This document shows, piece by piece, positions 8,196 through 60,154 of a stretch of DNA of 64,000 nucleotides. Made by a program: the position numbers and the translations under genes. The stretch is from Stutzerimonas stutzeri RCH2 (GTDB lineage Bacteria; Pseudomonadota; Gammaproteobacteria; Pseudomonadales; Pseudomonadaceae), in the NCBI RefSeq assembly GCF_000327065.1, contig NC_019936.1:3686001-3750000 (forward strand). Reading direction: 5' to 3'. The notes under the pieces were generated by a model. The model searched no databases. It was not told where the DNA came from and worked only from the letters and a program-made list of their open reading frames with translations. How positions within the stretch are numbered: the first letter of the stretch is position 1; each line of letters starts with the position of its first letter.

Positions 8196-11100
8196 CTAGG
8201 CCGCAGGCTGGAACAGCCGCACGCTCTGCACCTCGTCGCCCTTGGCCAATTGCTCGCGGAGCAACTTCTCCTGCTGGCGGGCCTTGGCGATGGAGCGCTC
8301 CTTCACCGGGCCGTAGCCGCGGATCTGTTCCGGTAGCGCGGCGATGGCCACGGCGGTGCGGTAGTTGGTCGGCTTGAGCTGGGCCAGCAGCTCGTCCACG
8401 GTTTTCTCGTACTCGCTGATCAGCTGGCGCTCGACGCGGCGGTCGTGGCCATAGCCGAACGGATCGAGCGGCGTACCGCGCAGGAAGCGGAACTTGGCCA
8501 GCACGCCAAACAGGTTCAGCACCCACGGCCCCAGCTCGCGCTTGCGCGGTTCACCGGTTACGGGGTCACGCTTGGCCAGCCAGGCCGGGGCGAGGTGGAA
8601 CTGCAGCTTGTAGTCGCCCTCGAACTGCGCTTCGAGCTGCTGGCGGAATTCCGGCTCGCTGTACAGCCGCGCCACCTCGTACTCGTCCTTGTAGGCGAGG
8701 AGCTTGAAGTAGTAGCGCGCGACGGCCTTGGATAGCGCCAGATCATCGGCGCTATCGGCGTCGCGCACGCGCTCGACCAGCTGGCGATAGCGGCGCGCCA
8801 GCCCGGCACTCTGGTAGCGGGTGAGGAAATCCACGCGCCAGTCGACGATCTCTTCCAAGGTCTTGCAGATCGGTTCGACCATATCGACGGGGCGTGCCAA
8901 CTGCTCCACCGCTTCACGCTCGAGCACGGCACGGCGGCCCCAGCGGAAGGCCTGCAGATTCAGCTTGGCCGACACGCCGTTGAGCTCGATGGCCTTCTCG
9001 ATGGCCTCGGCGCTGATCGGCAGCAGCCCCTGCTGATAGGCGAAGCCGAGCAGGAACAGGTTGGTGGCGATGCTGTCACCCAACAGCCGCGTGGCCAGGC
9101 GAGTGGCATCGACGAAGTGGGTCTTGTCGGCACCGACCGCATCGCTGATGGCCTGGCGCATAGCCGCGCCGGGCACCTGCGCATCCGGGTTGCGGGTGAA
9201 CTCTGCGGTGGCCGACTCGTGGCTGTTCACCACGGCGTTGCTGATCTGCTCGTTGAGCCGGGTCAGTGACTCGTCACCAGCGGCGACGATCAGGTCGCAG
9301 CCCAGCAGCAGGTCGGCTTCACCGGCAGCGATGCGCACGGCATAGATGTCGCTCTGCTTCGCGGCGATGCGCACGTGGGTGGTCACCGGGCCGAATTTCT
9401 GCGCCAGACCGGCCTGGTCGAGCACCGTGCAGCCCTTGCCTTCCAGATGCGCGGCCATGCCGAGCAGCGCGCCGAGTGTGGTCACGCCGCTGCCACCGAC
9501 GCCAGGAATCAGCACGTTCCATGGACGATCCAGCGTTGGGTGCTGCGGCTCGGGCAAAGTCGCCGCCTCGATACCGCCAGCTACTGCTTCGGGTTTGCGC
9601 AACCCGCCGCCATGCACGGTGACGAAGCTCGGGCAGAAGCCCTCGACGCAGGAGAAATCCTTGTTGCAGGCGTTCTGGTCGATCTCGCGCTTGCGCCCCA
9701 GTTCGGTTTCCAGCGGCAGCACGGCGAGGCAGTTGGACTTCTCACCGCAGTCGCCGCACCCCTCGCAGACCGCCGGGTTGATGAAGGCGCGCTTGGCCGG
9801 GTCTTCCATCTTGCCGCGCTTGCGCCGGCGACGCTTCTCGGTGGCGCAGGTCTGGTCGTAGATGATCACCGAGACGCCCTTGAACTCACGCAGCTCACGC
9901 TGCACGGCATCCAGTTCACGGCGGTGGTGGAAGCTGGTGATCGGCGCGAAGGTATCGCGGCTCGGGTACTTGTCCGGCTCGTCGCTGACCAGGGCGATGC
10001 GCTTGACGCCCTCGTGGAAGATCTGCCGGCTGAGCTGGTCGACGCGCAACTCGCCGTCGATCGGCTGGCCACCGGTCATGGCCACGGCATCGTTGTAGAG
10101 AATCTTGTAGGTGACGTTGACACCTGCTGCGACGGCGGCGCGCACCGCCAGGCTGCCGGAGTGGAAGTAGGTGCCGTCACCGAGGTTCTGGAACATGTGC
10201 GGGGTGTCGGTGAACGGCGCCTGGCCGATCCAGTTGACACCCTCGCCGCCCATCTGGGTAAAGGTCTCGGTGCGTCGGTCCATCCACTGCACCATGTAGT
10301 GACAGCCGATGCCGGCCGAGGCGCGGCTGCCCTCGGGCACCTTGGTCGAACTGTTGTGCGGGCAGCCGGAGCAGTAGTGCGGCGTACGCACGGTGCTGTA
10401 GCTGCGCGCGGCCAGGGCCTTCTCCTTGGCGGCCAGGAAGGCCAGACGGGCCTGGATGCTGTCGCTGGTGTAGATCGGCGCGAGGCGCTTGGCGATCACC
10501 CGCGCGATCATCGCCGGGGTCAGTTCGGAGAGGTTCGGCAGCAATGAATTGCCCTGCTCGTCGAACTCGCCAACCACCCGCGGACGCTTGCTGACGGGCC
10601 AGTTGTAGAGCTGCCCGGTGAGCTGGTCCTCGATGATGCTGCGCTTCTCCTCGACCACCAGAATCTCGTCCAGCCCCTGGGCGAACTCGTGCACCGAGAC
10701 CGGCTCCAGCGGCCAGCTCATGCCGACCTTGAGCACGCGCAGGCCGACCGAGGCGCACAGCGCTTCGTCCAGGCCCAGGTCATCCAGCGCCTGGCGCACA
10801 TCGAGATAGGACTTGCCGGTGGTGATGATGCCAAGCCGCGGATTCGGCGAATCGAGCATCACCCGGTTCAGGTTGTTGGCCCGGGCAAAGGCGCGAGCAG
10901 CGTAGATCTTGTACAGGTTGAGGCGCTTTTCCTGAGCCAGCGGCGGGTCCGGCCAGCGGATGTGCACGCCGTCCTCGGGCAGCTCGAAGTCTTCCGGAAT
11001 GCGCGTCTGCACGCGCAGCGGGTCGACTTCCACCACGGCGGAGGAGTCGACGTTCTCGGCAATGGTCTTCAGCGCCACCCAGCAGCCGGAGTAGCGCGAC

Positions 11101-13142: not shown

Positions 13143-14483
13143 GTGCTCAACAGAATAACCGCCGCCAGCGTCTATCTGGTGCAACGCTTCCTCCCCTCGC
13201 CCTTCGTCTTCGCCATCCTGCTCACGCTGATCGTGCTGATCGCCGCCATGCTCAGCACCGGCCAGGGCCTGCCGGCGATGGCGCAGCACTGGGGCAACGG
13301 CTTCTGGAACCTGCTGGCCTTCACCATGCAGATGTCGCTGATCCTGGTCACCGGCCATGCCCTGGCACGGGCGCCGGCAATCAATCGCCTGCTCGACCGC
13401 ATGGCGCGCATCCCGCAGTCGCCCGGGCAGGCCATCATTCTGGTGACGCTGGTGGCGCTGGCCGGCTCCTGGATCAACTGGGGCTTTGGCCTGGTGATCG
13501 GCGCGGTGTTCGCCCGCGCGCTGGCGCGCCAGGTGCGCGGCGTTGACTATCCGCTGCTGGTGGCCTCGGCCTACTCAGGCTTCCTGATCTGGCACGGCGG
13601 CTTTTCCGGTTCGATCCCGCTGTCCCTGGCCAGCGGTGGCGCCGATCTGGAAAAGATGACCGGCGGCGCGCTGACCGAAGCCATCGGCGTCGGCCAGACG
13701 CTGTTCGCCTCCTACAACCTGATCATCATCGCCGTGCTGGTGGTGGGCCTGCCGCTGTTGAACTGGGCTATGCAGCCGAAGACGCCGAAAGTGGTCGACC
13801 CGGCGCTGCTGGAGGAACCCCAGCCGAGCGACATCCCGCGGGAAACCGCCACCCAGCGCCTGGACGACAGCCGCATCCTCGGCCTGATCATGGTTGCCCT
13901 GGCGGTGCTGTTCTTCTACCAGCACTTCAGCAATAACGGTCTGGCACTGAGCCTGAACATCGTCATCTCGATCTTTCTCTTCGCCGGCCTGCTGATGCAT
14001 GGCACGCCGGAGCGCTACATGCGCGCCATCGAGGAAAGCATTCGCGGCATCGCCGGGATCGTCGTGCAGTTCCCCTTCTACGCCGGGATCATGGGCATGA
14101 TGGTCGGCGCCAATGCCGCTGGTGTGTCCCTCGGCCGCCAGGTCACCGACACCTTTATCGCCTGGTCGTCGGCCGAGAGCTTCCCGGTGCTGGCCTTTCT
14201 CAGCGCCGGGCTGGTCAACGTCTTCGTGCCCTCCGGTGGCGGCCAGTGGGCGGTACAGGGGCCGATCATGCTGCCGGCTGGCGCCGCGCTCGGCGTGGCA
14301 CCGGAAGTCACGGCCATGGCGATCGCCTGGGGCGATGCCTGGACCAACATGATCCAGCCGTTCTGGGCCCTGCCGCTGCTGGGCATCGCCGGACTCGGGG
14401 CGCGCGACATCATGGGCTACTGCCTGCTCTGCCTGGTGTTCTCCGGTGTGGTGATCGCTGGTGGGCTGTACTTCCTGACCTGA
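13143..14483 (+). CDS. AtoE-family short-chain fatty acid / acetoacetate transporter
   Basis: Inner-membrane carrier of 446 residues with about ten to twelve hydrophobic helices, belonging to the AtoE (short-chain fatty acid transporter) family. Characteristic blocks are GSWINWGFGLVIGAVFAR, FYAGIMGMM, FVPSGGGQWAVQGP and GDAWTNMIQPFWALP. Members import acetoacetate or butyrate-like acids. The start is GTG with an AGGGAG ribosome site 9 nt upstream. It is followed after 273 bp by a permease and 3-hydroxybutyrate dehydrogenase, which fits ketone-body use. A paralogue lies at 20794-22128. Exact substrate is not readable. Confidence 0.9.
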   Translation: MLNRITAASVYLVQRFLPSPFVFAILLTLIVLIAAMLSTGQGLPAMAQHWGNGFWNLLAFTMQMSLILVTGHALARAPAINRLLDRMARIPQSPGQAIILVTLVALAGSWINWGFGLVIGAVFARALARQVRGVDYPLLVASAYSGFLIWHGGFSGSIPLSLASGGADLEKMTGGALTEAIGVGQTLFASYNLIIIAVLVVGLPLLNWAMQPKTPKVVDPALLEEPQPSDIPRETATQRLDDSRILGLIMVALAVLFFYQHFSNNGLALSLNIVISIFLFAGLLMHGTPERYMRAIEESIRGIAGIVVQFPFYAGIMGMMVGANAAGVSLGRQVTDTFIAWSSAESFPVLAFLSAGLVNVFVPSGGGQWAVQGPIMLPAGAALGVAPEVTAMAIAWGDAWTNMIQPFWALPLLGIAGLGARDIMGYCLLCLVFSGVVIAGGLYFLT

Positions 14484-14493
14484 TACGCCTCTG

Positions 14494-14575
14494 CATTCCG
14501 GACCGCGCTGCTGTCCGGAATGCTGGACCGCACTGTCCAGCATTCAAGACATCGATACCGTCCACCATTTTGGAC
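14494..14575. promoter_or_regulatory. Triple GGAC/GTCC inverted repeats, probable enhancer-binding-protein sites
   Basis: Three nested dyads: CATTCCGGAC...GTCCGGAATG (14494-14522), TGCTGGAC...GTCCAGCA (14521-14542) and GTCCA...TGGAC (14560-14575). They lie 41-123 bp upstream of the -24 element of a sigma-54 promoter, where activators of this class bind. The first could also serve as the atoE terminator, but the shared GGAC/GTCC core and spacing suggest a protein-binding array. Confidence 0.55.
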
Positions 14576-14615
14576 AGCCTGCAGAAACCCTATCGAAATC
14601 AGTGAGTTGCATATC

Positions 14616-14631
14616 TGGCACGGAACTCGCT
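14616..14631 (+). promoter_or_regulatory. Sigma-54 (-24/-12) promoter for gntP-like gene and bdhA
   Basis: TGGCACG-N4-TCGCT matches the consensus TGGCACG-N4-TTGCW at all but one position, with the invariant GG (14617) and GC (14629) exactly 12 bp apart. Predicted start of transcription is near 14643, giving a leader of about 115 nt to the ATG at 14757. In P. aeruginosa the homologous hydroxybutyrate genes are controlled by a sigma-54 activator (HbcR); its gene is not in this window. Confidence 0.75.
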
Positions 14632-14660
14632 AAATCACGGTGCGGCCTGTCCGCAGCCGA

Positions 14661-14668
14661 AACAAGAA
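14661..14668 (+). promoter_or_regulatory. Possible catabolite-activity motif in the gntP leader
   Basis: AACAAGAA in the leader, 18 nt after the predicted sigma-54 transcription start but 88 nt before the start codon, so its effect on translation is less certain than for the start-proximal copies. Confidence 0.3.
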
Positions 14669-14756
14669 AAACAATGCGCCTGCCGTGCAGCAGCGAGTCC
14701 CCGAATGCCCTCGGCAGCGTTCGGTCGTGCCGCACGGGGCCAGGAGATCGTCCCCG

Positions 14757-16148
14757 ATGAGCGTCGTCATCGCCCTTGCTGCATTGGCCCTGCTGATGCT
14801 CGCCGCCTACCGCGGCTACAGCGTCATTCTGTTTGCTCCCATCGCCGCCATGGGTGCGGTGCTGCTCACCGACCCGTCCGCGGTGGCGCCGGCGTTCACC
14901 GGCATCTTCATGGAGAAGATGGTCGGCTTCATCAAGCTCTATTTCCCGGTATTCCTGCTCGGTGCGGTGTTCGGCAAGCTGATCGAAATGTCCGGCTTCT
15001 CGCGCTCCATCGTCGCCGCGGCGATCCGCCTGCTCGGCACCAGCCAGGCGATGCTGGTGATCGTGCTGGTCTGCGCGCTGCTGACCTACGGCGGCGTGTC
15101 GCTGTTCGTCGTGGTGTTCGCGGTGTACCCCTTCGCCGCCGAGATGTTCCGCCAGAGCAACATGCCCAAGCGGCTAATCCCGGCGACCATCGCCCTCGGC
15201 GCGTTCACCTTCACCATGACCGCCATTCCCGGCACGCCGCAGATCCAGAACATCATCCCCACCACCTTCTTCAACACCACCACCTGGGCTGCGCCCTGGC
15301 TGGGTCTGATCGGCACCGTCTTCGTCTTCGGCCTGGGCATGCTTTATCTGAAGTGGCAGCTTGGCAAGGCCATGGCCGCCGGCGAAGGCTACGGCACCAA
15401 CCTGCGCAACGAGCCGGAAACACCCGCCGATATTGCCCTGCCGAACCCCTGGCTGGCGCTGTCGCCGTTGATTCTGGTGCTGGTGGCCAACCTCTTGTTC
15501 ACCCGCTGGATTCCCGAGTTCTACGGCACCAGCCATAGCCTGCAGCTACCGGGCATGAGCGCGCCGCTGGTCACCGAGGTCGGCAAGCTCACCGCCATCT
15601 GGGCGGTGGAAGCGGCGCTGCTGCTGGGCATTGCCCTGGTACTGGCGACCAGCTTCGGCACCCTGCGCGGCAAGCTTGCCGAGGGCAGCCGCACGGCGGT
15701 CGGAGGCTCGCTGCTGGCGGCGATGAATACCGCCTCGGAATTCGGTTTCGGCGCGGTGATCGCCTCACTGCCAGGCTTCATCGTGGTGGCCGATGCGCTC
15801 TCGGCGATTCCCAACCCGCTGCTCAACGAAGCCATCACCGTCAACCTGCTGGCCGGCATCACCGGCTCGGCCTCCGGCGGCATGAGCATCGCGCTGGCGG
15901 CGATGGCCGACAGTTTCGTCGCTGCGGCGAATGCCGCGCAGATTCCCCTGGAAGTGCTGCACCGGGTTGCCTCGATGGCCTCCGGCGGGCTCGACACCCT
16001 GCCGCATAACGGCGCGGTAATCACCCTGCTGGCGGTCACCGGGCTGACCCACCGCGAATCCTACAAGGACATCTTCGCCATCACCCTGATCGCCACGGCC
16101 GCGGCCTTCTTCGTGATCGGCGTGTACTACGCTACCGGCATCGTCTGA
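14757..16148 (+). CDS. GntP-family permease, probably for 3-hydroxybutyrate
   Basis: Inner-membrane permease of 463 residues with about twelve hydrophobic helices, of the GntP/hydroxy-acid permease family. Family-like segments include TAIPGTPQIQNIIPTTFF and the C-terminal GGLDTLPHNGAVITLLAV block. The ATG at 14757 is chosen because a GGAG sits 10 nt upstream; the same frame is open back to 14640, but this would add residues upstream of the first helix and overlap the promoter leader. It lies 115 bp before 3-hydroxybutyrate dehydrogenase and behind a sigma-54 promoter, matching the permease-dehydrogenase pair known in P. aeruginosa. Substrate is therefore inferred from context. Confidence 0.88.
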   Translation: MSVVIALAALALLMLAAYRGYSVILFAPIAAMGAVLLTDPSAVAPAFTGIFMEKMVGFIKLYFPVFLLGAVFGKLIEMSGFSRSIVAAAIRLLGTSQAMLVIVLVCALLTYGGVSLFVVVFAVYPFAAEMFRQSNMPKRLIPATIALGAFTFTMTAIPGTPQIQNIIPTTFFNTTTWAAPWLGLIGTVFVFGLGMLYLKWQLGKAMAAGEGYGTNLRNEPETPADIALPNPWLALSPLILVLVANLLFTRWIPEFYGTSHSLQLPGMSAPLVTEVGKLTAIWAVEAALLLGIALVLATSFGTLRGKLAEGSRTAVGGSLLAAMNTASEFGFGAVIASLPGFIVVADALSAIPNPLLNEAITVNLLAGITGSASGGMSIALAAMADSFVAAANAAQIPLEVLHRVASMASGGLDTLPHNGAVITLLAVTGLTHRESYKDIFAITLIATAAAFFVIGVYYATGIV

Positions 16149-16150
16149 TG

Positions 16151-16196
16151 GTGGCGGCTGCTCGCCGTTATCGGCGAAGCGCCGCGCCATCAGCGA
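16151..16196. other. Imperfect hairpin between permease and bdhA
   Basis: Nested dyads GATGG...CCATC and CGCCG-TTAT-CGGCG follow the permease stop codon. Without a T-tract this looks more like an mRNA-stabilising or processing stem than a full terminator, so the downstream gene is still likely co-transcribed. Confidence 0.35.
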
Positions 16197-16208
16197 TTGC
16201 CTTCCGAC

Positions 16209-16216
16209 AACAAAAA
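16209..16216 (+). promoter_or_regulatory. Possible catabolite-activity motif before bdhA
   Basis: AACAAAAA within an A-rich run, 47 nt before the bdhA start. Fits AAnAAnAA but is further from the start codon than the other copies. Confidence 0.3.
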
Positions 16217-16263
16217 AAGCAAAGGCACCGTCCTCGGGCGGTCGCCGCCAAGCGGGAGAAACC

Positions 16264-17034
16264 ATGAACCTCACAGGCAAGACCGCACTGGTCACCGGCT
16301 CCACCAGCGGCATTGGCCTCGGGATCGCACTGAAGCTGGCCGAAGCCGGCGCCGACCTGATCCTCAACGGTTTCGGTGATGCCTCGGCAGCGCTGGCCGA
16401 AGTCGGCCGCCATGGCCGCAAGGTCGGCCACCACGGCGCGGACGTGTCCGATCCGGCACAGATCGCCGAGCTGTTCGCCTATGCCGAGCGCGATTTCGGT
16501 GGCGTCGACATCCTGGTCAACAATGCCGGCATCCAGCACGTGGCGCCGGTGGAGGAGTTTCCGGTAGAGCGCTGGGACGCGATCATCGCCATCAACCTGT
16601 CCTCGGCGTTTCACACCACACGCCTGGCCCTGCCCGGCATGCGTCAGCGCGGCTGGGGGCGGATCATCAATATCGCTTCGGTGCACGGGCTGGTGGGCTC
16701 CGAGCAGAAGGCCGCCTACGTCGCCGCCAAGCACGGCCTGGTCGGGCTGACCAAGGTGGTCGCGCTGGAAACCGCCACCACGCCGATCACCTGCAACGCC
16801 ATCTGCCCCGGTTGGGTACTGACCCCACTGGTACAGCAGCAGATCGACGAGCGCGCGCGGGAGAGCGGCGATGAACAGCAAGCCCGCCACGACCTGCTGG
16901 CCGAGAAGCAACCCTCGCTGGACTTCGTCACCCCCGCGCAACTGGGTGCCATGGCGCTGTTTCTCTGCAGCGAGGCCGGTGACCAGGTGCGCGGTGCGGC
17001 ATGGAACATGGACGGCGGCTGGGCGGCGCGCTGA
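16264..17034 (+). CDS. bdhA: 3-Hydroxybutyrate dehydrogenase
   Basis: Cytosolic short-chain dehydrogenase/reductase oxidising D-3-hydroxybutyrate to acetoacetate with NAD. The 256-residue length is standard. It has the cofactor motif TGSTSGIG (11-18), NNAGIQ (86-91) and the catalytic triad S139, Y152, K156 (YVAAK). The substrate-family segment CPGWVLTPLVQQQI is typical of HBDH. A GGGAGAAACC ribosome site precedes the ATG. It follows the GntP-type permease and closes the ketone-body region; acetoacetate made here or by the tyrosine pathway needs a CoA transferase or ligase that is not in this window. Confidence 0.93.
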   Translation: MNLTGKTALVTGSTSGIGLGIALKLAEAGADLILNGFGDASAALAEVGRHGRKVGHHGADVSDPAQIAELFAYAERDFGGVDILVNNAGIQHVAPVEEFPVERWDAIIAINLSSAFHTTRLALPGMRQRGWGRIINIASVHGLVGSEQKAAYVAAKHGLVGLTKVVALETATTPITCNAICPGWVLTPLVQQQIDERARESGDEQQARHDLLAEKQPSLDFVTPAQLGAMALFLCSEAGDQVRGAAWNMDGGWAAR

Positions 17035-17147: not shown

Positions 17148-18728
17148 ATGACCACCATCAGCAGTGAAACACCGATCAATGGCAAGTCTCCGGTGCACCT
17201 GGCGCTGCGCCGGGTTGCGATCGATACCTACCGGGAAAACGTCGCCTACCTGCACCGCGACTGTGCCGCCTGCCGCGCCGAAGGTTTCCAGGCGCTGGCC
17301 AAGGTGGAGATTCGCGTCAACGGCAAGCGCATTCTGGCCAGCCTCAATCTGGTGGACGACCCGGCCATCGTCGGCTGTGACGAGCTCGGTTTGTCCGAAG
17401 ATGCCTTCGCCCAGCTTGGCGCCGAAGCCGGCGTGCCGGCATCGATTTCCCAGGCTGAACCGGCGGCATCCATTCCCGCCCTGCATCGCAAGATCGCCGG
17501 CGAACGCCTGCGCCGCGAGGACTTTCTGGCGATCATGCGCGACATCGCCGAGCATCGTTATTCAAAGATCGAGCTGACCGCCTTCGTGGTCGCCTGCAAC
17601 CAGGGCGAACTGGACCGTGAGGAGGTGTTCTTCCTCACCGACGCGATGATTCAGGTCGGCCGCCGCCTGGACTGGCGCGAGCACCCTGTGGTCGACAAGC
17701 ACTGCATCGGCGGCATCCCCGGCAATCGCACGTCGATGCTGGTGGTGCCCATCGTCGCCGCCCACGGCATGCTGTGCCCGAAGACCAGCTCGCGGGCGAT
17801 CACCTCACCGGCCGGTACCGCCGACACCATGGAGGTGCTGGCCAACGTCGAACTGCCGTTCGAGCGCCTCTGCGAGATGGTCCGCGAGGAACGCGGCTGC
17901 CTGGCCTGGGGCGGCACCAGCGAGCTGTCGCCGGCCGATGACGTGCTGATCGCCGTCGAGCGGCCGCTGTCGATCGACTCGCCCGGGCAGATGGTCGCTT
18001 CGATCCTGTCGAAGAAGATTGCCGCCGGCTCCACTCACCTGCTGCTGGACATTCCCATCGGCCCGACGGCCAAGGTGCGTTCGATGGCCGAGGCGCAGCG
18101 CCTGCGCAAGCTCTTCGAATTCGTCGCCTCTCGCCTGGGCCTGACCCTGGACGTGGTGATCACCGATGGCCGCCAGCCGATCGGCAATGGTATCGGCCCG
18201 GTGCTGGAGGCACGCGACGTGATGCAGGTGCTGCAGAACGATCCGGCGGCGCCGATCGACCTGCGCCAGAAGGCGCTACGCCTGGCCGGACGCATGCTGG
18301 AGTTCGACCCCGACGTACGCGGCGGCGACGGCTATGCCATCGCCCGCGACATCCTCGATTCGGGCCGGGCGCTGAAGAAAATGCATTCGATCATCGCCGC
18401 CCAGGGCAGCAAGCCCTTCGATCACAACCATCCACCACTCGCCCGCCTCAGCTTCGACGTGCTGGCCGAGCGCAGCGCGGTGGTCACCGGCATCGACAAC
18501 CTGCAGCTGGCACGCATTGCGCGGCTGGCCGGCGCACCCAAGGTGCAGGGTGCCGGCGTGGACATTCTGCGCAAGCTCGGCGAACCGGTGCAGGCTGGTG
18601 ACTGTCTGTATCGCGTTTACGCGGATTTTCCCGCCGACCTCGCCTTCGCCCGCCAGGCCACCGAGCGCGCCAGCGGCGTCAGCCTCGGCAGTGCCGACCA
18701 GGTTCCCAGTGTTTTCGTGGAGTTCTGA
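17148..18728 (+). CDS. AMP-phosphorylase-like thymidine phosphorylase family protein
   Basis: Nucleoside/nucleotide phosphorylase of 526 residues. It is longer than DeoA (about 440) because of an N-terminal domain of about 90 residues, the architecture of archaeal AMP phosphorylase. The phosphate-site loop reads [11 protein letters not shown] (183-193), as in the archaeal-type subgroup rather than the STGGVGD of DeoA, followed by [18 protein letters not shown] (214-231). A C-terminal PYNP-like domain begins near 430. By family it would cleave AMP or a nucleoside with phosphate, giving a base and ribose 1,5-bisphosphate or a pentose 1-phosphate. Its stop codon overlaps the start of a PRPP-synthetase-like gene (TGATG), implying tight coupling. 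No RuBisCO or ribose-bisphosphate isomerase gene is nearby. Substrate is open. Confidence 0.82.
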
Positions 18729-19624
18729 TGCAAAGCCAGCTGCTGTATTTCGATGATGAGCGCGCCGCCGCCCTGCGCCTGGCCGAAGCCTGCGGCCTGA
18801 CCGCGGCGCAGATCGAGCGCCACCGCTTTCCCGATGACGAACTGCGCCTGCGCCTGCCGCTGGCCGACGGCGAAGCGATCGCCGAGCAACTGGTGATCTA
18901 CCGCGGCCTCGATCATCCCAACGAGAAGCTGGTCGAGCTGCTGCTGATCGCGGGCGAGGCGCGCCGCCTGGGCGCCAAGCGACTGGTTCTGGTCACGCCT
19001 TATTTGGCCTACATGCGTCAGGACATCGCCTTCAACCCGGGCGAGGTGGTCAGCCAGCGGGTCATCGGCCAGCTGCTGGCCGGGCAGTTCGACGGGCTGA
19101 TCACCGTCGACCCGCACCTGCACCGCGTTGCCACCCTGCAGGAAGCCGTGCCGCTGGAAGATGCCGTCACCCTCTGCGCGGCCCCTGCACTGGCACGGCT
19201 GATCGCCGAGCGCCATCCCGATGCCCTGCTGATCGGCCCGGATGCCGAGGCGCTGCAGTGGATCGAAGCGGCGGCCGCCGAGCATGGCTTCGCCCATGGC
19301 GTCTGCAGCAAGGTCCGCCACGGCGACCATCAGGTGGAGATCGCCCTGCCGGAACTGCAGTTTGCCGGACGCCATGTGGTGCTGCTCGATGACGTCGCCA
19401 GCTCCGGCCGCACCCTCGCCCAAGCCGCGGAGAAGCTGCTCGCTGCCGGTGCCGCCTCGGTCGACGTGGCCGTGACCCATGCGCTGTTTGCCGGCGATGC
19501 GCTGCAGGTGATACGCGACGCCGGCGTCGGCCATGTCTGGAGCACCGACTGCATCGCCCACGGGAGCAACGCCGTGAGCATGGCGCCGCAGCTGGCCGAA
19601 GCGCTCAGGCCGCTGTTGCGCTGA
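18728..19624 (+). CDS. Ribose-phosphate pyrophosphokinase-like protein (divergent Prs)
   Basis: PRPP-synthetase family protein of 298 residues, shorter than housekeeping Prs (about 315). Conserved parts include FPDDE (34-38, in place of FPDGE), the Y-x-R-Q-D segment (95-99), VDPHLH (128-133, in place of VDLHAxQ), K195/R197 at the catalytic flexible loop, and the PRPP loop VVLLDDVASSGRT (217-229). The active-site set therefore looks intact. The start codon overlaps the phosphorylase stop, so the pair is co-translated. Likely product is PRPP, but coupling to a phosphorylase that may release ribose 1,5-bisphosphate raises the possibility of another substrate. The cell's main prs would lie elsewhere. 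Confidence 0.82.
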   Translation: MQSQLLYFDDERAAALRLAEACGLTAAQIERHRFPDDELRLRLPLADGEAIAEQLVIYRGLDHPNEKLVELLLIAGEARRLGAKRLVLVTPYLAYMRQDIAFNPGEVVSQRVIGQLLAGQFDGLITVDPHLHRVATLQEAVPLEDAVTLCAAPALARLIAERHPDALLIGPDAEALQWIEAAAAEHGFAHGVCSKVRHGDHQVEIALPELQFAGRHVVLLDDVASSGRTLAQAAEKLLAAGAASVDVAVTHALFAGDALQVIRDAGVGHVWSTDCIAHGSNAVSMAPQLAEALRPLLR

Positions 19625-19660: not shown

Positions 19661-19837
19661 GTGGACAAGGCGCTGCCGTTGTCCACCCTACGAGCATCCT
19701 GCACCGGCGAACCATCTACGCCTCAACACCACGCCGCCGTAGGGTGGAAAACACGCAGCTTTTTCACCGAGCCGGGCGACCACCTCGGCGGCGGCGGAAC
19801 AACCGCGTGGACAAGGCTGCGCCGTTGTCCACCCTAC
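19661..19837. repeat. Three REP-type hairpins between convergent genes
   Basis: GTGGACAA...TTGTCCAC followed by CCTACG (19661-19692), an inverted copy starting GTAGGGTGGAAAA and ending TTTTTCACC (19739-19768), and a third GTGGACAA...TTGTCCAC-CCTAC (19807-19837). The last copy supplies the TAG stop codon (19834-19836) of the convergent glycosylase gene, so the repeat has moved into or formed its 3' end. Confidence 0.7.
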
Positions 19838-20616
19838 CCCTCATCCACCGCACTCGGCTCCTCGGGCACGAGCTGTGATGAATCACCGTAGCGCTTTTGG
19901 CAGCGCTCGCAGAAGAACGCCCGCCGCCTGCTGCGCCCCAGTTCTTTCACCTTCACCAGCGGAATATGGCAGCGCACGCAGGCCGTCTTGCCATGGGCCA
20001 ACCAGTGCGCCTTGAGCACGCCGGCCTGTTTCCACTCGAGAAACTCGAAGCTGTAGCTACGCGCCTCGCGTACCAGTTCGCGCAGCTTGGCTGGCGGCAA
20101 CTCGCCGATCAGCGACAGCGGATGCACACGAATCCGATAGAGCACCTCGTTCTTGATGATGTTGCCGGAGCCGGCGAACAGCGTCTGGTCGAGCAGCGCA
20201 TCGCAGGCCAGCAACCGTGGCCGTGCGCGCAAACGCTTGAGCGTCGTGCGCGGGCTCCAGGCATCGCTCATCACATCCATGCTCCAGTCATAGGCCGCAC
20301 CCAGCGGCCCCTCGATCAGCTGCACGGAGCAGGCATAGAAGTTCAGCTCGCCATTGGCAAAAGCCAGGCTCAGCCGTGCGGTGGCGTCCTTGCGTTCGTT
20401 GATGCGGTAACTGCCGAACAGCAACAGATGGATGCGAACGGCGACGTCTTCCAGCTCGATCAGGAAATGCTTGCCCCAACTATGGAAGCCGCGCACCGCC
20501 TGACCGACGAGGCGAGACATGTCGATCTTCGCGCTGCCTTCGGCACGCTCGACGGTGCGCCCGCTGAATGCCGCGACTTCTTCACGCAGGATAACGATGG
20601 AGGGACCTTCGGGCAT
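19834..20616 (-). CDS. Fpg/Nei-family DNA glycosylase (endonuclease VIII-like)
   Basis: Base-excision repair glycosylase/AP lyase for oxidised bases, 260 residues. The N-terminus MPEGPSIVIL supplies the Schiff-base proline P2 and E3; the Nei-family glutamate at position 6 is serine here. K49 (WGKHF) and the GSGNIIKNE block with N152 match the family, and the C-terminal zinc finger has C213, C216, C236 and C239. The end of the frame lies inside a REP hairpin. It is monocistronic and convergent with the PRPP-synthetase-like gene. Substrate preference (pyrimidine or 8-oxoG lesions) cannot be told; the PEGP start favours Nei over MutM. Confidence 0.88.
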   Translation of the reverse strand: MPEGPSIVILREEVAAFSGRTVERAEGSAKIDMSRLVGQAVRGFHSWGKHFLIELEDVAVRIHLLLFGSYRINERKDATARLSLAFANGELNFYACSVQLIEGPLGAAYDWSMDVMSDAWSPRTTLKRLRARPRLLACDALLDQTLFAGSGNIIKNEVLYRIRVHPLSLIGELPPAKLRELVREARSYSFEFLEWKQAGVLKAHWLAHGKTACVRCHIPLVKVKELGRSRRRAFFCERCQKRYGDSSQLVPEEPSAVDEG

Positions 20617-20793: not shown

Positions 20794-22128
20794 TCAGGCA
20801 GCAAGGTAGCCCCAGATCCAGATAGTGCCGCTAAAGATGAGTCCCAGATAGCCCAGGATCAGCACCATGTAGCCCATCACATCGCGCAGTTTCAGCTTGG
20901 AAATTGCCAGCGCCGGCAGTATCCAGAACGGCTGAATCATGTTGGTCCACTGATCGCCGACCTGCACACCCAGTGCGGTTGCCGCCAGGGACGCATTCAG
21001 CTCGCGCGCAGCCTCGATCACAACGGGCCCCTGCATCGCCCACTGACCACCCCCCGACGGCGCGAGAATATTGATCAGTCCACCGCTGATGAACGACCAG
21101 ATCGGCAGCGTTTCGGCAGTGGAAATCCGGACGAACAGCTCGGCGAAGGATACAACCAGCCCCGAACCAACCAGGACGCCCATGATGCCGGCGTAGAACG
21201 GGTACTGGATGATGATCCCCGAAACGATCTTCACCCCTTCAGCCAACGCCGCCAGATAGCGGGCCGGCGAAGCGAACAGCAGAATCCCGAGAAACACGAA
21301 GATGAAATTGACCGTGTTCAGATCCAGCGAACCACCATCGGAGAAGCGCAAGCCGACATAGAACAATCCGAGCGCGCCGATGACGATCCCGGTCACCTTG
21401 CTGTGATTCATCCGATCAGCCAGGGTCGCCTCAGTGTTTCCTGCCAGGCTCGGCTCGAACGGGATGGCGACCGTTGTCGGATCGATTTCAACGATCTGCC
21501 TGGGGTTCTTCGGATGAAGCCAGGCGTTGAACAGCGGTAGCGTCAGCACAACCAGTGCCGATGCGATCAGCAGCGGAGCGCTGAAGATGGTCTCCGAAAG
21601 GGGTATCAACCCCATGCGGTCCTGCAGGAAATGCCCTTCGGTCGCGATCAGCAGCGGGACACTGCCAGACAAACCGATACCGTAAACCGAGAACCCGGAA
21701 AACGCTGCCGCGATTACCAGCGGGTAATGCAGGCCCGGCACCTTCAGTGCCAGCTTCTGAGCGACGATGCTGCCAATCACCAGGCCGAACCCCCAGTTCA
21801 GCCAGCTGCCGATCGTACCGACCAGGGTGGCGACGACAATGGCGGCAAACGGCGTACGTACAGTGCCGGCGATCCGGTCTAGCAAACCGTCGACGAGAGG
21901 GGTGCGAGCCAGTATGTAACCTGCCAGGAGGATGACCGTCATCTGCATGCTGAACGCCAGCAGGTTCCAGAAACCACCGCCCCAGTAGCGCGTAACGTCG
22001 AGCGGGCTGCTGCCTTCGACAAGCACCGCAAGGAGCATGGTTAGAACCGTGAGCCCCATGGCGATGACCAACGGGTCCGGCATATAGCGATTGACTAGGC
22101 GTGTGAAGAAGTTGGCTAACGCATTCAT
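20794..22128 (-). CDS. AtoE-family short-chain fatty acid transporter, second copy
   Basis: Inner-membrane carrier of 444 residues, a clear paralogue of the carrier at 13143-14483: it shares WGGGFWNLLAFSMQMT, GSWLNWGFGLVIGS, FYAGIMGVL, PSGGGQWAMQGP and GDQWTNMIQPFW. The ATG at 22128 has a perfect AGGAGG; a frame extension of 21 codons upstream lacks support. It is alone, without a CoA transferase or thiolase next to it, so the substrate (acetoacetate, butyrate or similar) is unknown. A catabolite-activity motif and a GTTCG/CGAAC palindrome upstream suggest carbon-source control. Confidence 0.88.
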   Translation of the reverse strand: MNALANFFTRLVNRYMPDPLVIAMGLTVLTMLLAVLVEGSSPLDVTRYWGGGFWNLLAFSMQMTVILLAGYILARTPLVDGLLDRIAGTVRTPFAAIVVATLVGTIGSWLNWGFGLVIGSIVAQKLALKVPGLHYPLVIAAAFSGFSVYGIGLSGSVPLLIATEGHFLQDRMGLIPLSETIFSAPLLIASALVVLTLPLFNAWLHPKNPRQIVEIDPTTVAIPFEPSLAGNTEATLADRMNHSKVTGIVIGALGLFYVGLRFSDGGSLDLNTVNFIFVFLGILLFASPARYLAALAEGVKIVSGIIIQYPFYAGIMGVLVGSGLVVSFAELFVRISTAETLPIWSFISGGLINILAPSGGGQWAMQGPVVIEAARELNASLAATALGVQVGDQWTNMIQPFWILPALAISKLKLRDVMGYMVLILGYLGLIFSGTIWIWGYLAA

Positions 22129-22143
22129 GGGGCCTCCTGGCCG

Positions 22144-22151
22144 TTGTTTTT
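22144..22151 (-). promoter_or_regulatory. Crc/Hfq catabolite-activity motif before second atoE
   Basis: AAAAACAA on the minus strand, 15 nt before the start codon at 22128 and 5' of the AGGAGG site. Confidence 0.45.
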
Positions 22152-22209
22152 CTGGACGGCGACGGTAGACGGCCTGGATCAAAGCCAACAATCCGATAAT
22201 CGAGTAACG

Positions 22210-59293: not shown

Positions 59294-59399
59294 TGAAGGA
59301 TCCTTGGGACGGGCGTTAACTCAAAAGAGAAACATTATCATCTGTGAATTGACGCAAAGCAACCCGGGCGTTTCGTCGCAGTAGCCGACGCCCCTTTCA

Positions 59400-59440
59400 T
59401 TGAGCTGGATCAAAAAGCGCCCGCGCTCACTCCCTACCAT
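59400..59440 (+). promoter_or_regulatory. Anr/FNR site and promoter of ompW
   Basis: TTGAG-CTGG-ATCAA (59400-59413) matches TTGAT-N4-ATCAA with one mismatch, and TACCAT (59435-59440) is placed where a -10 box should be for a site centred at about -41.5. Transcription would start near 59447 and be activated under low oxygen. Confidence 0.7.
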
Positions 59441-59476
59441 GGCCCCCAATCGCATTCCAACAAACGGAGCATCATC

Positions 59477-60154
59477 ATGCGCAAGACCCTGTTCACCGCT
59501 TCCGCGCTGGCCCTGGCGCTGGCCGCCCCCTTCGCCCAGGCTTTCGAGGCCGGGGACATCATCGTTCGCGCTGGTGCGATTACCGTTGATCCGCGTGAAG
59601 ATAGCAGCACTATTGCTACCGCAGTCACCGGCCCACTGGCCGGAACAAAGGCCACACTCGACAGCGACACTCAGCTCGGCCTGAACTTCGCCTACATGGT
59701 TACCGACAAGGTCGGTATTGAACTACTCGCAGCAACTCCGTTCAGCCACGACGTCGGCGTGAAGGGACTGCCAGGAAACATGGACGGCAAGTTCGGCAGC
59801 ATCAAGCACCTGCCACCGACCCTGAGCGTCATCTACTACCCGCTCGATAAGACATCCGCGTTCCAGCCCTACGTCGGAGCAGGCGTTAACTACACTTGGT
59901 TCTTCGACGACAAGCTGAGCAGCCACGCCGAAGGCAATGGCTTCAATGGCTTGGACTTGAAAGATTCTTGGGGCTTGGCCGCCCAGGTAGGCATGGATTA
60001 CATGCTGACCGACAACATCATGCTCAACGCTCAGGTTCGCTATATCGACATCGATACCGAAGCCACTTCCAACCATGCAGTACTGGGCAAGGTTAAAGTC
60101 GACGTCGATGTAGACCCCTTCGTCTACATGGTCGGCCTCGGCTACAAGTTCTGA
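59477..60154 (+). CDS. ompW: OmpW-family outer-membrane protein
   Basis: Eight-stranded outer-membrane barrel of 225 residues: signal peptide 1-22 (cut after AQA), FEAGDIIVRAGAITVDP, GLNFAYMVTDKVGIELLAATPFSHDV, KHLPPTLSVIYYPLD, QPYVGAGVNYTWFF and the terminal strand FVYMVGLGYKF ending in Phe. The ATG at 59477 has CGGAG upstream. OmpW proteins form narrow hydrophobic channels; control by oxygen regulators is common. Terminator follows the gene. Confidence 0.93.
   Translation: MRKTLFTASALALALAAPFAQAFEAGDIIVRAGAITVDPREDSSTIATAVTGPLAGTKATLDSDTQLGLNFAYMVTDKVGIELLAATPFSHDVGVKGLPGNMDGKFGSIKHLPPTLSVIYYPLDKTSAFQPYVGAGVNYTWFFDDKLSSHAEGNGFNGLDLKDSWGLAAQVGMDYMLTDNIMLNAQVRYIDIDTEATSNHAVLGKVKVDVDVDPFVYMVGLGYKF

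Follow-up and report, generated by a model that had tools for sequence, protein, structure and literature searches.

The window analysed here, a 64,000-nucleotide stretch of the Stutzerimonas stutzeri RCH2 genome (NC_019936.1, positions 3,686,001 to 3,750,000 of the forward strand), carries two overlapping genes, one annotated as thymidine phosphorylase and the other related to phosphoribosyl pyrophosphate (PRPP) synthetase (Prs), and the question raised by this locus is what such a pair does in a bacterium. We consider it fairly probable that the two genes form a coupled module, in which nucleoside monophosphates (NMPs) would be phosphorolysed to ribose 1,5-bisphosphate (R15P), and the Prs-like partner would then convert R15P into either PRPP or ribose 5-phosphate (R5P), likely in low-oxygen salvage of RNA nucleotides. 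The predicted picture is that of an archaeal-type NMP phosphorylase in bacteria, coupled to a Prs variant and without RuBisCO.

Gene pair and its occurrence in Pseudomonadota

The pair was located in the window as follows.

17148-18728, plus strand: phosphorylase gene (526 amino acids, NF003338/PRK04350 family, annotated as 'thymidine phosphorylase'), proposed NMP phosphorylase
18719-18730, plus strand: GGAG and, after it, TGATG, in which stop and start codon overlap
18728-19624, plus strand: PRPP-synthetase-like gene (298 amino acids, NF005537/PRK07199 family)

The initial annotation had described the two products as translationally fused, which they are not; the genes overlap, as it had also noted, by one shared base in TGATG, where the A of TGA (18726-18728) is the first base of ATG (18728-18730). 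The GGAG at 18719-18722 is placed five bases 5′ of the second ATG, and promoter and terminator scans found nothing.

The phosphorylase exceeded its cut-off in 44 of 398 genomes of Pseudomonadota, and the Prs variant did so in 40. Both were over cut-off in 39 genomes, or in 40 with G285, which is just under the Prs cut-off and was counted as Prs-positive (Fisher p 3e-49). With the Prs variant in 40 of the 44 phosphorylase genomes, the coupling suggested earlier for this locus was borne out, and the two genes were within 300 nt of each other in 38 of the 40 pair genomes, adjacency being counted per genome. The non-adjacent cases were G236, in which the pair is split over contigs, and G293, with the order Prs, phosphoketolase, ribonuclease-type gene, phosphorylase. 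Overlap was observed in 54 of 73 measured pairs, as called by an open reading frame caller that takes the first start codon.

In a survey of 340 Gammaproteobacteria, 70 of 74 phosphorylase genomes had the Prs variant (66 over the Prs cut-off), when five genomes with Prs fragments or sub-cut-off scores, four of which also hold the phosphorylase, were counted as positive; 71 of 76 places were adjacent. Two genomes with the phosphorylase and without the Prs variant, G566 and G504, stop at contig ends, and seven of the 340 have the Prs variant without an over-cut-off phosphorylase.

The closest named relatives of the second window protein belong to Stutzerimonas, with identities of 88-92%. The initial annotation had stated that its reading would be refuted if close relatives had lost the pair. 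This is in part the case: within the genus, a search for the phosphorylase alone found it over cut-off in no more than 14 of 56 genomes, and the pair therefore appears patchy and dispensable.

Two over-cut-off phosphorylases each were present in G154, G259, G304, G454 and G511, and two over-cut-off Prs variants also in G154, G454 and G511. Proteins P0125 (821 amino acids) and P0127 (820 amino acids), with 94% and 92% identity to the phosphorylase of the window, look like run-ons, whether by genuine fusion or by frameshifts in the sequence data; P0127 lists the Pfam domains of both halves, and P0125 those of the phosphorylase only, its run-on being judged by length. A family name for each half is known and the fusion is named in databases; no account of the function of the pair was found in the literature, as judged by title and start of abstract.

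Family and active site of the phosphorylase

The phosphorylase scored 709 bits against the NF003338 profile (cut-off 434) and 610 bits against TIGR02645, 'putative thymidine phosphorylase' (cut-off 434.6), and stayed under the cut-offs of the nucleoside phosphorylase profiles TIGR02643 (154 bits, cut-off 571), TIGR02644 (197, cut-off 409), NF004490 (197, cut-off 269) and NF004747 (134, cut-off 559). The nearest solved structure is that of the Thermococcus AMP phosphorylase (4GA5), which is itself deposited as 'putative thymidine phosphorylase'. This archaeal AMP/NMP phosphorylase (TK0352 of T. kodakarensis) converts NMPs to R15P according to passages of PMC9700705 and PMC8376864. The window enzyme has in common with it the N-terminal domain, the GGxPGN loop, SRAITS, W233, G235 and K288 (T. 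kodakarensis numbering), and differs from it by DKH in place of DVH, by a score below the AMP phosphorylase equivalog cut-off, and by being paired with a Prs-like enzyme. The following features were placed on the gene.

17196-17463, plus strand: N-terminal extra domain (about residues 17-105), common with archaeal AMP phosphorylase and absent in nucleoside phosphorylases; TIGR03327 alignment from profile position 3
17694-17726, plus strand: catalytic loop (residues 183-193)
17790-17807, plus strand: SRAITS (residues 215-220), corresponding to T. kodakarensis residues 194-199; GRGLGH in DeoA-type rows
18072-18074, plus strand: K309, equivalent of T. kodakarensis K288; F or M in DeoA-type rows

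The N-terminal extra domain, pointed out in the initial annotation as a trait of AMP phosphorylases, is present, as the TIGR03327 alignment spans profile positions 3-490 of 500, and the DeoA-type rows were gapped at both tabulated columns of this region (10/10). The resemblance also claimed for the archaeal loop stood for GGxPGN, as in Thermococcus, and failed for DKH, which is the nucleoside-phosphorylase form.

Conservation was followed at the positions G168, 194-199, T203, D256, S264 and K288 of the T. kodakarensis enzyme, presumed to be AMP-binding after the HAMAP/UniProt entry, in alignment row sets which, for both proteins of the pair, count some genes twice. At every such position the Thermococcus residue was kept in at least 98 of 99 Prs-associated rows, and in 120 rows of fusions with PhnN (see below) the only departures from Thermococcus were N at D256 in 8 rows and R at K288 in 8. 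In the ten DeoA-type rows, positions 194, 196 and 198 were instead G, 197 was L, 199 was H, and 288 was F or M; in this last column, that of K309, the counts were K 99/99 in the Prs-associated rows, K 112 and R 8 in the fusions, and F 9 and M 1 in the DeoA-type rows. W233 and G235 divided the rows in the same way, with Prs-associated, fusion and T. kodakarensis enzymes against the DeoA type. In a quick tree, these three also grouped apart from DeoA with an SH-aLRT support of 100, to be read with a long-branch warning, and 14 fusions formed one clade among the Prs-associated forms (support 89). In the alignment, the active site matches that of the archaeal NMP phosphorylase and differs from those of the ten DeoA-type phosphorylases.

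If the annotations were nearly right, a nucleoside phosphorylase would supply ribose 1-phosphate, which phosphopentomutase would turn into R5P and an ordinary PRPP synthetase into PRPP, for base salvage. The DKH motif would suit this route, as would the catalytic residues of PRPP synthetase, which are all retained in the partner, and searches with PF00591 and NF003338 found no second full-length DeoA/PyNP-type phosphorylase in the genome of the window, a gap that the route would fill. The active site is unlike that of the ten DeoA-type enzymes at the presumed AMP-binding positions, however, and other bacteria carry members of this phosphorylase family joined to an R15P kinase; we hold the nucleoside route to be quite unlikely.

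PhnN-phosphorylase fusions

The four phosphorylase genomes of the 398 that lack the Prs variant (G249, G308, G382 and G392) all encode a PhnN domain ahead of the phosphorylase in one chain, with TIGR02322 scores of 181, 186, 169 and 164 bits (cut-off 156). In these fusions (Bosea, Jiella, Azorhizobium), the phosphorylase is of the same family as in the window and has an R15P-to-PRPP kinase attached, with an unrelated kinase fold in place of the Prs-like partner. The best 120 matches to one fusion were 648-702 amino acids long, and those named were mostly called PhnN or thymidine phosphorylase. PhnN is described as converting R15P to PRPP in passages of PMC11452294 and PMC9700705. Since an R15P kinase on the same chain suggests that the phosphorylase releases R15P and therefore uses NMPs, these natural fusions are the strongest sign of the substrate; they make an NMP phosphorylase likelier than the annotated thymidine phosphorylase, and they favour the ribose-1,5-bisphosphate route which the initial annotation had put forward as an idea.

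No PhnN was fused or adjacent to the phosphorylase in the window locus. Co-occurrence was followed in 40 pair-positive and 40 family-matched pair-negative genomes, hand-chosen from the 398 with exclusion of the four fusion genomes and G383, some singleton families having no matched control. PhnN was over cut-off in 10/40 pair genomes and 8/40 controls and was rejected as a co-occurring gene, and the R15P isomerase (TIGR00511) was over cut-off in 0/80 genomes. As the Prs variant holds the slot of PhnN, and in view of these PhnN and isomerase counts, we infer that it takes R15P. The archaeal pentose bisphosphate (NMP) shunt is different in that its isomerase is absent from the 80 genomes at cut-off, and its RuBisCO from the genome of the window (G000), in which no PF00016 match was found; the lack of RuBisCO first noticed at the locus is thus genome-wide. 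The survey of the pair against RuBisCO that had been recommended gave RuBisCO in 19/40 pair genomes and 19/40 controls, and RuBisCO was rejected as a hidden partner, the two being unrelated.

The nadC gene, the enzyme of which uses PRPP, is directly upstream of the fusion gene in three of the four genomes (nadC and fusion gene spans: L139 5470-8433, L140 6619-9616, L142 5425-8080). This neighbourhood would suit an anabolic shunt, in which surplus NMP is converted through R15P to PRPP in order to rebalance nucleotide or NAD pools, and which would serve neither fermentation nor energy supply; in passages of PMC11452294, bug27 likewise adjoins nadC and phnN in Variovorax and Jezberella. The 'phnN' of that article may be a PhnN-phosphorylase fusion. 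The Prs-associated form has other ties, to a beta-CASP gene and, in Bradyrhizobium, to oxygen shortage and FixK2 (see below), and for the pair as a whole the anabolic shunt is possible though doubtful.

The PRPP-synthetase-like protein

The second protein scored 389 bits against NF005537 (cut-off 322), and the nearest solved structure is the archaeal-type PRPP synthetase of M. jannaschii (1U9Y), with which it has the fold family and all catalytic residues in common. Its motifs were placed as follows.

19016-19024, plus strand: RQD (residues 97-99), conserved and matching canonical Prs
19106-19126, plus strand: VDPHLHR (residues 127-133); H130 canonical, H132 and R133 a subfamily signature
19235-19261, plus strand: GPDAEALQW (residues 170-178)
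19310-19318, plus strand: flexible-loop catalytic residues K195 and R197, each in 109/109 rows
19388-19414, plus strand: PRPP loop DDVASSGRT (residues 221-229)

All 109 rows keep K195, R197, H130, R97, Q98, D99, D221, D222 and T229; the intact PRPP loop and catalytic K/R reported in the initial annotation were thereby confirmed, and with every catalytic residue kept the Prs variant should be an enzyme. The differences that are fixed in the subfamily (E174, W178, H132-R133 and D200) cluster beside the active-site motifs. E174 (109/109) and W178 (108/109) replace the G and R of canonical PDxGGxxRA (12/12 each), the corresponding residues of M. jannaschii being G and F. HLHR is a further difference from the M. 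jannaschii enzyme. Two altered motifs had been singled out earlier: that of VDPHLH proved to be a signature of the subfamily, VDPHLHR, with H132 and R133 in 109/109 rows, and that of FPDDE is a local variant of no special mark, since FPDGE was found in 16 of 19 aligned members.

PRPP-synthetase-associated proteins in animals are regulatory paralogues, and the Prs-like protein could by comparison be a paralogue of this kind, regulatory or inactive, which is not an enzyme and acts by modulating the phosphorylase. The fixed changes E174 and W178 beside the active site would agree with such a role, as would the other Prs-type genes of G000, indicated by four NF005537 matches of which one is over the cut-off; the Prs variant is thus, in distinction to the M. 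jannaschii protein, not the only Prs-type gene of its genome. Against this stand the catalytic K195, R197, H130, D221 and D222 in 109/109 rows and the solitary occurrence of the Prs variant in some genomes, which render a purely regulatory role highly improbable.

In the PRPP synthetase reaction, the phosphorus on the C1 oxygen of PRPP is the former beta phosphorus of ATP. R15P would have its 1-phosphate where that phosphorus ends up, and by this analogy it is conceivable that the Prs variant carries out R15P + AMP -> R5P + ADP, or R15P -> PRPP, the former being the normal Prs transfer minus the end phosphate.

Beta-CASP and phosphoketolase genes

Neighbour genes were called with a codon-position score, which leaves some antisense calls in high-GC loci. 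A beta-CASP gene was within 3 kb of the pair in 17/40 genomes, and was found anywhere in 28/40 pair genomes and 10/40 matched controls (p 1e-4). The domains of these metallo-hydrolases are Beta-Casp and RMMBL, and the best solved match of one of them is the ribonuclease TTHA0252. A phosphoketolase gene was within 3 kb of the pair in 4/40 genomes. In G000, at a distance of about 640 kb, a beta-CASP gene and a divergent phosphoketolase gene (XFP, 143 bits) are arranged head to head, with hits at G000:C1:3058689-3060893, ahead of genes which by eye resemble recX, recA and cinA. By synteny, the P. aeruginosa counterparts of the head-to-head genes are presumably PA3613 and PA3614. Both of these are marked 'U' (up) in the anaerobic-growth gene table of PMC8575079, a mark that may or may not stand in the Anr column.

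The head-to-head stretch corresponds to L166 9193-13149 (G000:C1 about 3057192-3061148), where a near FNR site, CTGATATGTATCAA, is found at L166 11669, barely inside the called start of the second gene; L167 has the same layout, with CTGACATGTATCAA. At L193 4936-7817 (G655, a genome of 1.3 Mb), a beta-CASP-like gene overlaps the phosphorylase, and no Prs variant was called nearby. Of 11 loci with a TIGR00730 (LOG-like) gene, one member of which was scanned, 8 have this gene no more than 133 nt away from the pair (L062, L076, L092, L101, L108, L111, L112 and L147, the last at 9509-10372); relatives of TIGR00730 cleave NMPs to base and R5P.

Low-oxygen regulation in Bradyrhizobium

In the alphaproteobacterium Bradyrhizobium diazoefficiens, the pair recurs in unchanged order with an MBL-fold gene behind it; the three are bll3117-bll3116-bll3115, annotated as thymidine phosphorylase family, ribose-phosphate pyrophosphokinase and MBL fold, respectively, in the data given in PMC6515984. 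In the tables of that article, the three were up at 0.5% oxygen by log2 2.1, 4.4 and 2.9 as proteins and by 5.1-, 7.7- and 15.4-fold as transcripts. In passages of PMC9104804, they form a predicted operon that has the box ATGATCTGGGTCAA at position -74 relative to bll3117, and in a fixK2 mutant bll3117 was down 6.6-fold, bll3115 30.6-fold, and the phosphoketolase-acetate kinase operon bll2518-bll2517 tenfold. The ATGATCTGGGTCAA box was recovered at 74 nt in L134 by our scan for FNR-type sites. In the window, neither an MBL gene nor a FixK2 box is beside the pair, and there is no FNR-type site near it, which leaves low-oxygen control in Stutzerimonas a supposition. Three FNR-like sites, with one mismatch each, are found within 250 bases elsewhere in the window (59349-59599).

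Proposed function

In the coupled module, the first enzyme would convert NMP and phosphate to base and R15P, the NMPs likely coming from RNA degraded under oxygen shortage, and R15P would be passed on by the Prs-like partner as PRPP or R5P. From R5P, phosphoketolase would yield acetyl phosphate, and the whole route from RNA nucleotides through R15P to PRPP or pentose phosphate would be free of RuBisCO. In a bolder version, which we find unlikely, the Prs-like enzyme would be an R15P-specific phosphotransferase on a PRPP-synthetase fold, catalysing for example the AMP-dependent reaction given above, and would act with the beta-CASP ribonuclease, the phosphorylase, phosphoketolase and acetate kinase to burn the cell's own RNA for ATP without oxygen.

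A number of observations speak against the coupled module. As to the enzymes, the phosphorylase has the DKH form of the catalytic loop and scored 484 bits against the AMP phosphorylase equivalog TIGR03327, below its cut-off of 535, and since every known catalytic residue of PRPP synthetase is retained in the partner, the ordinary reaction of R5P with ATP remains compatible with it; in addition, G000 has a PhnN over cut-off elsewhere (G000:C1:90317). As to the coupling, G383 holds the Prs variant without the phosphorylase, G304 has a second phosphorylase without adjoining Prs, and G588 and G655 have the phosphorylase with no Prs called nearby (and no PhnN by eye, PhnN not being scanned for). 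Of the Gammaproteobacteria with the Prs variant, five that were examined (G587, G670, G710, G738 on a 4.7 kb contig, and G769) had no adjoining phosphorylase called. As to the setting, beta-CASP was not found in 12/40 pair genomes, including all eleven of family f39, and phosphoketolase was not significantly enriched (13/40 pair genomes, 7/40 controls, p 0.2). As to oxygen, the three Bradyrhizobium genes carry a '-' in PMC6515984 both under induction in bacteroids and under the direct FixK2 regulon as it had been defined earlier. An upstream FNR-type site with at most one mismatch was found in only 7/42 diverse loci (1.1 expected) and 7/63 named loci (0.65 expected), the expectations coming from shuffles that preserve single-base content only; two of the seven diverse loci with a site are not Prs pairs (L139, a PhnN fusion, and L143, a frame-broken sub-cut-off phosphorylase). 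From 2146 to 29713, the window itself is free of FNR-type sites at up to one mismatch.

Should the coupled module be true, R15P metabolism, which is known mainly from archaea and phosphonate breakdown, would be a widespread RuBisCO-independent route in Pseudomonadota, many 'thymidine phosphorylase family' names would need correction, and an R15P role would be suggested for a subfamily of PRPP synthetases. RNA turnover would moreover be linked, in a testable manner, to low-oxygen survival in denitrifiers and root-nodule bacteria.

Neighbouring genes in the window

Upstream of the pair (13143-17034) are genes for a short-chain fatty acid transporter, a GntP-like permease and 3-hydroxybutyrate dehydrogenase. 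A functional tie of the pair to these 3-hydroxybutyrate genes was rejected, since among the clustered loci the GntP-like permease adjoins the pair only in the window and in six Stutzerimonas loci. Downstream, 19834-20616 encodes a divergent DNA glycosylase of the Fpg/Nei type, below all NCBIfam cut-offs listed, and a second short-chain fatty acid transporter gene is at 20794-22191.

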